Origin: Thermoleophilaceae bacterium
Lineage (GTDB): Bacteria; Actinomycetota; Thermoleophilia; Solirubrobacterales; Thermoleophilaceae
Length of the DNA stretch: 64,000 nucleotides
Assembly (NCBI GenBank): GCA_030447905.1
Contig: JAUJNZ010000011.1
Location: forward strand, 1-64,000
Direction: 5' to 3'
Made by a program: the position numbers and the translations under genes
Notes under the pieces: generated by a model
Database searches by the model: none
What the model saw: only the letters and a program-made list of their open reading frames with translations
Told to the model about the DNA's origin: nothing
Shown here: in pieces, positions 11,798-45,477 of the stretch
Numbering within the stretch: position 1 is the stretch's first letter
Layout: each line of letters begins with the position of its first letter

Positions 11798-12157
11798 ATG
11801 ACCCTCGCCGCACCTCCCTTCACGCTCTCAGAGGATCCCTCCGAGACCGAACTCGTTGCGAAGTACTTCCGCGCGCTCGGGGACCCGACTCGCCTGCGCA
11901 TCCTCGAGCTGCTGGCGGAGGCCGAGCTGTCGGTCAGCGAGATCGTCGACCGCCTTGACCTGCCTCAACCGAAGGTCTCGAACCACCTCGCCTGCCTACG
12001 CTGGTGTGGGTTCGTGGCTAGCCGTCGCGAGCACCGGGTGGTCCACTACCGGCTCGCCGACGAGCGAGTGGTGCGCGCGATAGAGCTCGCTCGTAGCCTT
12101 CTCGCCGACAGCGCCGATCGGATCGCCGCGTGCGACCGAATCGACGGTGGCTGCTGA
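11798..12157 (+). CDS. ArsR/SmtB-family metal-sensing repressor (CmtR-like cysteines)
   Basis: 119 residues with the ArsR winged helix: YFRALGDPTRLRILELLAEAELSVSEI and the recognition helix PQPKVSNHLACLRWCGFV. Two cysteines in and after the recognition helix (Cys66, Cys70) plus C-terminal Cys112 and Cys119 match the CmtR Cd(II)/Pb(II) ligand layout (helix CxxxC plus a tail Cys) better than the ArsR CVC motif. It is the first gene of the rightward unit with the thioredoxin-like, DUF2892-like and rhodanese genes, and diverges from the blaI operon across 149 bp. A -10-like TATGTT lies about 10 nt before the ATG, so the mRNA may be leaderless. Confidence 0.88.
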   Translation: MTLAAPPFTLSEDPSETELVAKYFRALGDPTRLRILELLAEAELSVSEIVDRLDLPQPKVSNHLACLRWCGFVASRREHRVVHYRLADERVVRAIELARSLLADSADRIAACDRIDGGC

Positions 12158-12212: not shown

Positions 12213-12527
12213 ATGAAGGTGGAGGTCCTCTACCTCGACGGCTGCCCCAGCCACGCGGCTCTCCTGCCTCGCCTACAGAAGCTCGCGTCCGAGGCGGGCG
12301 TAGAGGAGCAGATCGTGCTACGCCGGATAGACACTACCGAGGCAGCGGAGGGCGAGCGCTTCCTGGGCTCGCCGACCGTGCGCGTCGACGGCGTGGACGT
12401 CGATCCGGGCGCCGCCGACCGGACGGACTTCGGGCTCAAGTGTCGTATCTACCGATCGAAAGGTTCGGTTTCGTCGACTCCGGCCGATGAGTGGATTCGC
12501 TTGGCGCTCGACGGGAGGGCTCAGTGA
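12213..12527 (+). CDS. small thioredoxin-like protein with CPSH motif
   Basis: 104 residues. The N-terminus MKVEVLYLDGCPSHAALLPRL places a single Cys (residue 11) at the end of the first strand of a thioredoxin-like fold, and SPTVRVDGVDVDPGA matches the cis-proline region. TDFGLKCRIYRS follows. I recall this as a family found in mercury and arsenic gene clusters of actinobacteria, where some relatives are listed as possible selenoproteins; here the residue is an ordinary TGC Cys. The ATG at 12213 is chosen over an in-frame ATG 66 bp upstream that overlaps arsR. The stop overlaps the next start by one base. Confidence 0.7.
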   Translation: MKVEVLYLDGCPSHAALLPRLQKLASEAGVEEQIVLRRIDTTEAAEGERFLGSPTVRVDGVDVDPGAADRTDFGLKCRIYRSKGSVSSTPADEWIRLALDGRAQ

Positions 12528-12892
12528 TGACTCAGGCGGCCACGGGCTACGCGGGCCCGGTCCTCTCGGATAGCCAGCGACGCGCGCGAGGCATCGCCGG
12601 GATCGGCTTCCTCGCGTTGGGGTGGGCGGTCCTCCGCTGGCCGCGAGCCTTGAGCGTCCCTACAGCGCTTGCGGCTGGTTGGCTCGGCGCCTCCCACATC
12701 GTCGCGGCGGCCACTCGCTACCAGGGCTGCCCGGAGCTCGGTGCGATACCGACGCTGCTGGTTGGGCGACGAGTCGAAACCCGGTGCGGTCCGTGGGAGC
12801 TCCTGGACGACCGCCTTGGCCTGTCTGAGTCATATACAGAAGGAGGAGGAGGAGGAGGAGGAGGCGACCGTGCCGCGTGCTGCGCTCTATGA
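12527..12892 (+). CDS. DUF2892-like small membrane protein with poly-Gly tail
   Basis: 121 residues with two membrane helices: IAGIGFLALGWAVLRW and VPTALAAGWLGASHIVAAAT. This is the shape of DUF2892/YgaP-type membrane domains, which are often joined to or next to rhodaneses. Conserved-looking cysteines occur in YQGCPELGAIP and ETRCGPW. Near the end an AGG tract encodes eight glycines before DRAACCAL. The ATG overlaps the preceding TGA by one base, and the 3' end overlaps the rhodanese start by 23 bp, so the run is translationally coupled. Confidence 0.65.
   Translation: MTQAATGYAGPVLSDSQRRARGIAGIGFLALGWAVLRWPRALSVPTALAAGWLGASHIVAAATRYQGCPELGAIPTLLVGRRVETRCGPWELLDDRLGLSESYTEGGGGGGGGDRAACCAL
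12841..12864 (+). repeat. (AGG)8 triplet repeat doubling as Shine-Dalgarno tract
   Basis: Eight perfect AGG units. They encode eight Gly in the DUF2892-like gene and end 5 nt before the GTG (12870) of the rhodanese gene, so they also provide a tandem array of GGAGG ribosome-binding cores. Slippage would change the number of Gly codons but not the frame. Confidence 0.8.
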
Positions 12893-13556
12893 GGAGGTCC
12901 GGAAGCTGGTCGACGACGGCGCCCAGCTCGTCGAGGTCCTGCCCGAGGGCGAGTACGCAAAGCTTCACCTGCCTGGAGCCCGCAACATCCCGTTGAAGCG
13001 TCTCGACGCGGAGACCACCGCCGACCTAGATATCGCTCGACCGGTCGTCGTCTACTGTCACGACGCGCTGTGAGACCTGAGCCCGCGAGCCGCGTGTCGG
13101 CTCGAGATGCTCGGCTTCGAGCAGGTCTTCGACTACCTCCCCGGCAAAGCGGACTGGCTCGCTCGCGGCCTTCCGACCGAAGGAGATCGAGCAGGCGAGC
13201 GCCGGGTCGGCGAGCTCGCCCGCCAGGACGTCGCCACCTGCCACCTCTCCGAGCGGATGGGCGACGTCCGTCCCCGCGTCGAGGCCTCGCCGTACGGCTT
13301 TGCGCTGGTGGTCGCCGACAGTGACGTGCTGCTCGGGCGGCTTCGGCGGGAGGTCCTCGACGGGGACCCGGACCGGCGCGCCGAGGAGGTGATGGAGCCC
13401 GGCCCCTCCACCGTGCGAATGGACACGGCCCCAGACTCGCTCGCCGAGCGACTCGACCGGAGTAACCTCAAGACCGCTCTGGTGTCGACGCCGGACGGAG
13501 CGCTCGTCGGGGTTGTGCGCCGTGCGGACCTGCCCGGAGCCGACCCTGCCCCGTAG
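12870..13556 (+). CDS. rhodanese-CBS protein with in-frame TGA: candidate selenoprotein
   Basis: Read through the TGA at 13071-13073 this is one 228-residue protein. Residues 1-100 form a rhodanese domain (LVEVLPEGEYAKLHLPGARNIP, VVVYCHDAL-U-DLSPRAACRLEMLGF, YLPGKADWLARGLP). About 115-228 form a CBS pair (RDV... for ARQDVATCHLSERMGDV, VVADSDVLLGRL, VEQ-like EEVMEPGPSTVRMD, VSTPDGALVGVVRR). Codon 68 is TGA, placed as Cys63-x4-Sec68, where I recall relatives having a second Cys. The frame is identical before and after, with no other stop. A 7-bp stem with a CGTGT loop begins 12 nt downstream. Start is GTG at 12870 with GGAGG 5 nt before it. If TGA is a real stop, the product is only 67 residues and truncated inside the rhodanese domain. 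Confidence 0.75.
13086..13104 (+). promoter_or_regulatory. candidate bacterial SECIS hairpin of the rhodanese gene
   Basis: CGAGCCG (13086-13092) pairs perfectly with CGGCTCG (13098-13104) around the 5-nt loop CGTGT, which has G in second position. Nineteen nucleotides separate the TGA from the loop. A short stem with G among the first two loop bases at roughly 16-37 nt from the UGA is the bacterial SECIS description as I know it. Confidence 0.6.
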
Positions 13557-13701
13557 GCGTGGCCGCTACATACCTCGAAAGACGCGGCCGCACCTCCCGC
13601 GGTCTGGGCTCGCGGACTCGGCGCTCGTAGTGAGCAGCCGGCTCGACGCGAGCAGGCCGGCGGCGGGATCCGAGGCCTCCGCACCGCAAGACCGCATCGC
13701 G

Positions 13702-14931
13702 ATGCCGGACGAGGGCGAGAGCGTGCTCGCCGGGCTCGCCAACGTGGCGGCGATGACCTTCCTCGCCGCGAGGGCGGTCCCCGGTGGCTTCGTCGTCGCG
13801 CTCGCGGCCGGAGTCCCCCTCGCCCGTGCGGCGGGGCTAAACGGCGCCCGTGCCGGCTACGCCACCGCGGGGGCGAGCCTCGTCGAGACCCTGGCGGTCA
13901 TGGGACCGGCTCGGATGGGCATTCCCGTCCCTCACGCCGCCAGCGCACCCGCGCTCGGGTCACTCGAGAGTCGCGGGGCGGCCCTCATCACCATGGCGCT
14001 CGCCGGAGCGGGCATCCGCTTTGGCTACTACATCGTGACGAGCGCTTTCTACATCGTCGTCCTCGTCGGCCTCGATGCCTATACCGGCACCTATGCCGCG
14101 ATCCGCGAGACGCTCGCCTTCCTGCCGCCGGGCAAAGGGGCGGCCATGGCGGTGACTGCCGCCTTCCTCGGTCTCTGGTCGCTCGGCGCGGGGCTGATCC
14201 AAGCCTGGGTCATCAGGCGTGGCCTGCGCCGGTGGTCGAACGCGGAGCCGGGCCTCGGCGAGCGGCCGGCCGCGGCACCTGACCGTGGCGCCCGGGTCGA
14301 CCCGCGGGCGGCCACGGCGGCGGGGCTCGTGGCGATCGTGGTCGCCCTCGCCAGCACCGAGCCGCTTCCCCTTGCGCTCGTCGCCCTCTGGCTGGCCGTG
14401 GCTTGGCTGATCGCAGGTGCCGGTGCCCGGAGCCTCTTCGGTGGGCTCGCCCTCGCGGCCCCGCTCGCGCTCGCGACGCTCGCCTTCGGCCTCACCGGCG
14501 GGCTCGGGAGCGAGCTCGCCGTCCGGCGCGCTGTCCGCGTCGCCCTGCTCGTGCTGACGGCGGTGTGGCTGCGCTCGGCGGCCGGAGCCGACGGCCTGCG
14601 GGCGGTTTCGCTGGGCGCCGTACGCCGGCTTCGGCGTCTGCCGACGCTGGCCCTCGCGGCCTCGGTGCTCGGCGCCTCAGCCGGGATCGGGAGCTATGGC
14701 GACTCGGCTCGCCGCCTCGGGCGCCGGATGCGCTCCGCCCGCAAGCGCCCGGGTCCGCTCCTCGGGGCAGCGCTCGCTTGGATCGCGTCTGAGGCGGCGC
14801 GGTTGCCGCGGCCGGCCGAGGTGGAATCGAGGTCCACGGGTTGGTCGCGCGCTGCGACCGCGCTCGTCGTCAGTGCGGGCGGCATGGCGGTTCTCGCCGT
14901 GGGCGCGCTGGCAGTCTCTGTCGCTGCATAG
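13702..14931 (+). CDS. polytopic membrane protein of unknown function
   Basis: About 409 residues with eight to ten hydrophobic segments, for example MTFLAARAVPGGFVVALAAG, FGYYIVTSAFYIVVLVG, TAAFLGLWSLGAGLIQAWV and AGLVAIVVALASTEPLP. A charged loop with RRLRRLP and SYGDSARRLGRRMRSARKRPG lies before the last helices. I do not recognise the family, and it matches none of the common transporter signatures. The frame is open to 13513, but the ATG at 13702 starts just before the first helix; an in-frame GTG at 13630 is an alternative. It is the last gene of the putative island, 150 bp from tRNA-Val, on the side where an integrase would be expected. Confidence 0.6.
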   Translation: MPDEGESVLAGLANVAAMTFLAARAVPGGFVVALAAGVPLARAAGLNGARAGYATAGASLVETLAVMGPARMGIPVPHAASAPALGSLESRGAALITMALAGAGIRFGYYIVTSAFYIVVLVGLDAYTGTYAAIRETLAFLPPGKGAAMAVTAAFLGLWSLGAGLIQAWVIRRGLRRWSNAEPGLGERPAAAPDRGARVDPRAATAAGLVAIVVALASTEPLPLALVALWLAVAWLIAGAGARSLFGGLALAAPLALATLAFGLTGGLGSELAVRRAVRVALLVLTAVWLRSAAGADGLRAVSLGAVRRLRRLPTLALAASVLGASAGIGSYGDSARRLGRRMRSARKRPGPLLGAALAWIASEAARLPRPAEVESRSTGWSRAATALVVSAGGMAVLAVGALAVSVAA

Positions 14932-44781: not shown

Positions 44782-45126
44782 GCGGCGAGCGCCGGTCGCC
44801 TTGCCTCGACTCGACTTCTCGCCACCATGCGGTCCGTGAGCGATCAGCGCGCGCTCCCGGCCTCCGCCGCCGTGTCGGGGGTGGTCTGAGAAGAGCCCGT
44901 CGACGCCGAGCCCATAGAAGCTCGAGTATCCTGGCAGTCACCCGCGCTGGCCCACGGCGTCGGACACGCGAGCGGCCGGACGAGCGCCAGCACGCCCAGG
45001 GAGCCGGTCAGAGGGAGAGCGCGTGCCCAGCGCGCTTAGGCGGCTCCGCAACTGCCTTGGGATGGTTCCTCATCGAGGTTGAGGTCGAATTTGGGCCGCG
45101 ATCGCCGTGGCGGTACGCTCCCCGTC
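44782..45126. other. intergenic region, 345 bp
   Basis: Between the small membrane protein and the rhodanese gene. Both strands have only low-complexity open frames without start signals. No tRNA, terminator with T-tract or known riboswitch is recognisable. The last 40 bp presumably hold the rhodanese promoter. Confidence 0.6.
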
Positions 45127-45477
45127 GTGCCCGTCTTCGACGACCCTCCATCGGAGATTTCGCCCGAGCGCGTGGCCGAGCTGTGGAGGCGAGGCGAGGT
45201 GCAGCTGATCGACGTGCGCGAGCCTTACGAGCACGCGGCCGGGCGCATCGCGGGCGCGCGCCACATCGAGCTCGAGCGGCTCGCCTCGGAGGCCGAGACG
45301 ATCGACGGCGACCGTCCCGTCGTCTTCCACTGCCGCCTCGGCGCGCGGTCGGGCATGGCGACGCAGGCCTTCCGAGCCGCTGACTACGACGCCTACAACA
45401 TGACGGGTGGCCTCCAGGCGTGGGCCGATGCGGGGCTCCCGCTGGAGCCGGCCGAGGGGTACGTGGCCGCGCACTGA
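45127..45477 (+). CDS. single-domain rhodanese
   Basis: 116 residues. ISPERVAELWRRGEVQLIDVREPYEHAAGRIAGARHIELE (in part) and the active-site loop VVFHCRLGARSGMATQAFRAA, with Cys as the catalytic residue, then NMTGGLQAWADAGLPLE. It transfers sulfane sulfur in the cytoplasm. GTG 45127 starts at the conserved N-terminus. Unlike the TGA-containing rhodanese at 12.9 kb, it has a standard CxxGxRS loop and no second redox residue. Confidence 0.9.
   Translation: MPVFDDPPSEISPERVAELWRRGEVQLIDVREPYEHAAGRIAGARHIELERLASEAETIDGDRPVVFHCRLGARSGMATQAFRAADYDAYNMTGGLQAWADAGLPLEPAEGYVAAH

Follow-up and report, generated by a model that had tools for sequence, protein, structure and literature searches.

The window, that is, the whole stretch of 64,000 nucleotides that was analysed, holds on its forward strand a rhodanese–CBS gene at 12870–13556, which runs in one frame from a GTG start to a TAG stop and is interrupted by a single internal stop codon, TGA at 13071–13073 (codon 68). 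Read through this codon, the gene would encode a selenoprotein of 228 residues with selenocysteine (Sec) at residue 68; the starts and ends of homologues fall at matching positions. The TGA sits in the predicted active-site loop, VVYC-HDAL-U-DLSPRAA, four residues after Cys63, in a column that homologues fill with TGA or Cys. Cys63 itself (TGT, 13056–13058, forward strand) occupies the position of the rhodanese catalytic nucleophile, a column that is invariably Cys or Sec and is encoded by TGA in one clade. Shortly downstream, at 13086–13104 on the same strand, lies a hairpin resembling the bacterial SECIS (bSECIS).

Both domains of the predicted product were recognized. The Pfam rhodanese profile PF00581 spans the TGA (44.1 bits, cut-off 22.2, residues 8–98), and the CBS profile PF00571 matches after it (24.5 bits, cut-off 24, residues 172–221), which is the second motif of a tandem CBS pair placed at about residues 109–226 by profile as well as by fold; the fold matches of this C-terminal half are CBS pairs, e.g., those of MgtE and IMP dehydrogenase. 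AlphaFold2, run on the family alignment, returned a single confident rhodanese fold across the TGA residue (mean pLDDT 96.5). Comparison with a relative of the same genus gave dN/dS values of 0.28 upstream of the TGA and about 0.18 beyond the SECIS region. Judged from the sequences, purifying selection persists downstream of the TGA and acts on the protein as a whole.

The original prediction had taken 12870–13556 for one protein frame with the TGA as its only stop and had located this codon in the rhodanese loop as Cys63-x4-X68; the former is borne out by frame reading and by the Pfam domains, the latter by the sequence. It had also regarded an AGG tract coding for Ser/Gly as the ribosome-binding site. 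A GGA-repeat tract of this kind (12841–12864, forward strand), GGAGGAGG, does end a few nucleotides short of the GTG start, but in the overlapping open reading frame (ORF) at 12491–12892 it codes for Gly and not for Ser/Gly.

Upstream on the same strand lie a gene for an ArsR/SmtB-family metalloregulator (11798–12157; NF033788, 94.6 bits, cut-off 55; PF01022, 64.6 bits), a gene of the DF family of (seleno)proteins in its Cys form, with a thioredoxin-like N-terminus bearing LDGCP (12213–12527; NCBIfam NF049942, 110.7 bits, cut-off 70), and a small membrane-protein-like ORF of 121 residues (12527–12892 within the ORF span 12491–12892). The last overlaps the start of the rhodanese gene, is retained in the same-genus relative G043 and found no match in Pfam or NCBIfam. 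Downstream, a membrane-protein-like ORF of 436–472 residues (13513–14931) is likewise without a Pfam or NCBIfam match. A second rhodanese-domain gene of the window (45079–45477, 66.6 bits) has no in-frame stop, and the genome yields ten rhodanese matches in total.

Codon 68 and the hairpin across relatives

Of 201 genomes from the order of the window's own genome, 23 gave a homologue match at E ≤ 1e-15, and in a search of 397 genomes spread across the phylum, 57 had a match. When codon 68 was scored by position in 56 distinct full-family loci, it proved to be TGA in 51 and TGC or TGT in five (L022, L023, L036, L041 and L043), the Cys forms being single continuous genes. The TGA counted in G083 is the terminator (codon 68 there is TGT), so all genome-search counts of stops inside the gene were verified at the level of single positions. 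In a second actinobacterial order, that of genome G524, all 22 further loci have TGA at codon 68, as do three plasmid copies, from Pseudonocardia broussonetiae, P. autotrophica and Rubrobacter marinus. Taken together, about 75 loci, drawn from many families of actinobacteria, carry the same TGA, and among the family members examined codon 68 was never TAA or TAG. The patchy distribution within the order (23/201 genomes) and the plasmid copies fit the accessory character that had been ascribed to the gene at the outset. In RefSeq, the Pseudonocardia copies L173 438–1103 (NZ_CP053565.1) and L174 7986–8654 (NZ_AP018921.1) are each entered as two CDS, "rhodanese-like" and "CBS domain-containing", cut exactly at the TGA. 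One contig (L158, G374:C13) carries two oppositely oriented TGA-form copies separated by about 6 kb, and one of them adjoins a MerR-type gene.

The hairpin, CGAGCCG-CGTGT-CGGCTCG, starts 12 nt after the TGA and has a stem of 7 bp (13086–13092 with 13098–13104) and a 5-nt loop containing a G (13093–13097), a geometry that had been noted at the outset and that is conserved under strong synonymous constraint. Bacterial SECIS elements are hairpins that lie shortly 3′ of the UGA and carry a small apical loop containing a G (PMC1088965), and the present one agrees with them in position and in loop. It is the minimum-free-energy structure, but as a single sequence it folds only mildly better than its shuffles (z −1.8); comparative tests were therefore used. 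All seven stem pairs are intact in 48 of the 51 TGA genes as against none of the five Cys genes (Fisher p about 1.5e-5, relatedness uncorrected), and 98.8% of alignment cells pair, a share that drops to about 50% or lower once the partner is shifted. Synonymous identity over codons 74–80 reaches 0.886 where 0.417 is expected, an excess of 0.47 that makes these the most constrained codons of the gene, the rest of which has a median excess of 0.03 (sd 0.04); the string GCC-GCG-xxx-CGG-CTC hardly varies among TGA genes and is unconstrained among Cys genes. A compensatory change from C-G to U-A occurs at one stem pair in L092 and, in the other order, in L117 and L133, covariation being limited because most stem pairs never vary. 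A covariance model of the hairpin, trained on 47 TGA genes, gave 48–63 bits to TGA genes outside the training set and 36 bits or less to Cys genes. Searched with this model, the window's own genome has no second convincing SECIS of the same type (next match at E about 4), and an Rfam search returned no relevant match.

Decoding of the UGA

The search for selA, selB, selC and selD that the original prediction had called for found all four in the window's own genome, which is 95% complete. The tRNA-Sec (selC) scores 68.7 bits and has the anticodon TCA, SelA scores 424 bits, SelB, which adjoins SelA, 285 bits (cut-off 242), and SelD, in its Cys form, 343 bits. Within the order, SelB exceeds its cut-off in 13 of 19 TGA-form genomes versus 54 of 182 others (p about 0.001, relatedness uncorrected). 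Six of the 19 TGA-form genomes are without SelB over the cut-off, and a tRNA-Sec is present in two of these; four TGA-form genomes, all fragmented MAGs (G037, G021, G155 and G178), gave neither a SelB match over the cut-off nor a tRNA-Sec. In other lineages, the TGA-form genomes G243, G385 and G587 have no tRNA-Sec match, and one is present in G524, a TGA-form genome that is complete in a single contig. As for the Cys-form genomes, G083 and G126 match neither SelB nor tRNA-Sec, and G198 has a tRNA-Sec. No inside stop was seen in the molybdopterin oxidoreductases of the window's own genome. One such gene, apparently nitrate-reductase-like (G000:C19:12666–13951), was matched in two pieces overlapping by 1 base, which points to a frameshift or an assembly error.

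The conservation of the TGA, its exchange with Cys, the hairpin, the sel genes and a dN/dS of about 0.18 together make selenocysteine essentially certain by comparative evidence. The UGA at 13071–13073 is almost surely decoded as selenocysteine, with the whole gene encoding one selenoprotein; on the same comparative grounds, this UGA is a Sec codon that exchanges with Cys and the hairpin is its bacterial SECIS. The codon-68 pattern, hairpin, sel genes and purifying selection thus support what had at first been put forward as probable. The second Cys that had been expected in relatives was found in five of them, the alignment holds TGA or Cys at this codon and nothing else, and the signs of a pseudogene for which a check had been advised did not appear, the gene having no further stops and a low dN/dS after the TGA.

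Three other readings of the codon were weighed. The RefSeq plasmid records with two CDS cut at the TGA, together with an ATG (DMSPRAA) that stands just past it in some relatives, would suit a pair of independent products, namely a rhodanese fragment of 67 residues that stops at the TGA and a CBS protein restarting downstream. Such a division, however, would cut the rhodanese active-site loop, whereas the Cys forms are single and continuous, residues 69–105 belong to the best-conserved part of the family, the stop is always TGA and never TAA or TAG, and the predicted structure places the site within a single, confidently modelled rhodanese fold; we consider it very improbable. Even less credible is a nonsense mutation, a sequencing error or a decaying pseudogene, with TGC or TGT turned into TGA in one lineage: the codons do differ by one base and the gene is patchily distributed, but the recurrence of the TGA in independent assemblies, families and plasmids, the dN/dS after it and the constraint on the hairpin speak against decay. 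Decoding of the UGA as some other amino acid, through Trp reassignment or programmed readthrough, would likewise yield a full-length product, but its probability is negligible, given that TGA is the commonest normal stop of the 32 called window genes (17 TGA, 11 TAG, 4 TAA), that Cys alone takes the position in relatives, and that the gene has a SECIS-like hairpin and the genome the full set of four sel genes. TGA conservation, the continuous Cys forms, the use of TGA as a normal stop, and the hairpin with the sel genes led to the rejection of all three.

The double-Sec clade and the proposed function

Position 63 is likewise TGA in most loci from the order of G524, which would give U-x4-U, and a single hairpin follows both UGAs; the two codons are 15 nt apart, the first lying 34 nt before the hairpin loop. 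This pattern goes beyond the original prediction, as do the recurring regulator and DF neighbours described below. In a midpoint-rooted tree of 76 proteins, computed with positions 63 and 68 left out, CxxxxU is spread throughout, UxxxxU is confined to a single clade, which also contains one or more CxxxxU members, and about three changes are required to explain CxxxxC. The predicted motifs CxxxxC, CxxxxU and UxxxxU thus form a real series, to which the tree, being midpoint-rooted, assigns no direction. One UxxxxU locus (L020, JACZUI010000074.1) is titled "Acidobacteria bacterium"; a matching contig (L126/L166) occurs in G699, which is placed in an actinobacterial order, and the taxonomy of the title looks wrong.

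In the mechanism proposed here, SelB with tRNA-Sec, recruited by the hairpin 12 nt downstream, would decode the UGA to give an N-terminal rhodanese domain with the loop Cys63-x4-Sec68 and a C-terminal CBS pair. Cys63 would take up sulfane sulfur as a persulfide, and Sec68 would attack this persulfide and release sulfide, leaving a Cys63–Sec68 selenylsulfide that could be reduced by a thioredoxin-like partner, for which the DF protein encoded next to it is a possible candidate. The CBS pair may sense a nucleotide or a metabolite and tune the activity, while an ArsR or MerR metalloregulator would control the unit in a response to persulfide or metal(loid) (Hg/As-type) stress. To the sulfur-relay chemistry of the Cys63/Sec68 protein, as deduced from sequence, we give about an even chance. 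In broader terms, its likely role would be in a redox relay of sulfur and selenium under persulfide or metal(loid) stress.

Across the family, 21 of 57 loci have a DF gene on the same strand no more than 1.3 kb upstream (among the loci examined, no Sec form of the DF protein was found), and in the order of G524 the arrangement MerR–DF–rhodanese/CBS is frequent. About 33 of the 57 loci are without both the DF and the regulator neighbour, and for this reason the operon logic is not universal; since many loci stand alone, the link to the DF and regulator neighbours is only suggestive. The main functional rival would be a selenoprotein that chiefly binds or detoxifies metal(loid)s (Hg, As) through its Cys/Sec pair, without sulfane-sulfur chemistry. 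ArsR- or MerR-type regulators within 3 kb of 23 of the 57 loci would agree with such a role, as would P. autotrophica, in which genes for MerR, an alkylmercury lyase (PF03243, 93.9 bits), DF and the rhodanese/CBS protein form an apparent operon beside arsenic-resistance genes, and selenocysteine is generally known as a strong ligand of mercury. On the other hand, the fold and the position in the catalytic loop are of the rhodanese type, a MerB-like neighbour occurs in only two of the 57 loci, and the solitary loci count against it as well; metal(loid) binding as the chief function is possible, though we would not expect it. On a Pseudonocardia plasmid (L174 6472–8654), the alkylmercury lyase gene overlaps the MerR-type and DF genes directly 5′ of the split selenoprotein gene, with arsenic-resistance genes near.

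Returning to the sulfur relay, the fullest version of the proposal is a tentative one, namely a CBS-regulated rhodanese family of the Actinomycetota whose active site would span the forms CxxxxC, CxxxxU and UxxxxU, the last with its two UGAs served by one SECIS, and that might act as a selenylsulfide/diselenide sulfur relay in metalloregulator-controlled operons for persulfide or organomercury/arsenic stress. With CC, CU and UU forms of the same active site, a single family lends itself to comparing what Sec does at the catalytic and at the second position, and the UxxxxU clade offers a test case for one bacterial SECIS decoding two UGAs. The rhodanese–CBS selenoprotein gene is present in named strains of Pseudonocardia and Rubrobacter.

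Comparison with known systems

The gene adds a widespread selenoprotein subfamily of the Actinomycetota that curated models have missed and that is cut at the UGA in at least two RefSeq plasmid records. TsoB, a known selenoprotein that shares the motif spacing of the double-Sec clade, was reportedly described by Haft and Tolstoy in 2025. A literature search whose scope left that description outside gave no paper joining rhodanese, CBS domain and selenocysteine, and "CxxxxU" was absent from the eight best-ranked papers of a further search. NCBIfam 20 has no CxxxxU rhodanese–CBS family and no model over its cut-off for the window protein (P0001) or a UxxxxU relative. A 2026 review of prokaryotic selenoproteins distinguishes five rhodanese forms (UxxS, UxxG, CxU, UxxG and the UxxxxU of TsoB) and lists neither a CxxxxU rhodanese nor a CBS fusion (PMC13188914). 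The deep-Sep paper makes no mention of rhodanese; its hypothetical protein DF is the DF family (seleno)protein (PMC12013277; NF049942), whose Cys form is encoded next to the present gene as a protein separate from the rhodanese–CBS product.

The first four rhodanese-like forms (UxxS, UxxG, CxU of NF041203, UxxG) share with the window protein Sec in a rhodanese fold, but differ in Sec motif, position and architecture; NF041203 gives the UxxxxU relative 22.9 bits (cut-off 115). TsoB (NF045694; form 5 of PMC13188914) has a UxxxxU rhodanese domain with the same spacing as the double-Sec clade, yet it carries a DsbD-like membrane part over a model of 572 positions, has no CBS domain, and is UxxxxU instead of CxxxxU (Table 1, PMC13188914). 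The window protein, without a DsbD part, scores 23.8 bits against that model (cut-off 805) and falls outside TsoB. The CBS pairs of MgtE, IMP dehydrogenase and PH1780 resemble the C-terminal half in fold but are not fused to a rhodanese domain. Among solved rhodaneses, the best match is BH2092 of Bacillus halodurans (PDB 3nhv/3o3w), whose YCWGPACNG places C-x4-C at the same columns; unlike the window protein, it is a single-domain protein with Cys at both positions and no CBS pair.
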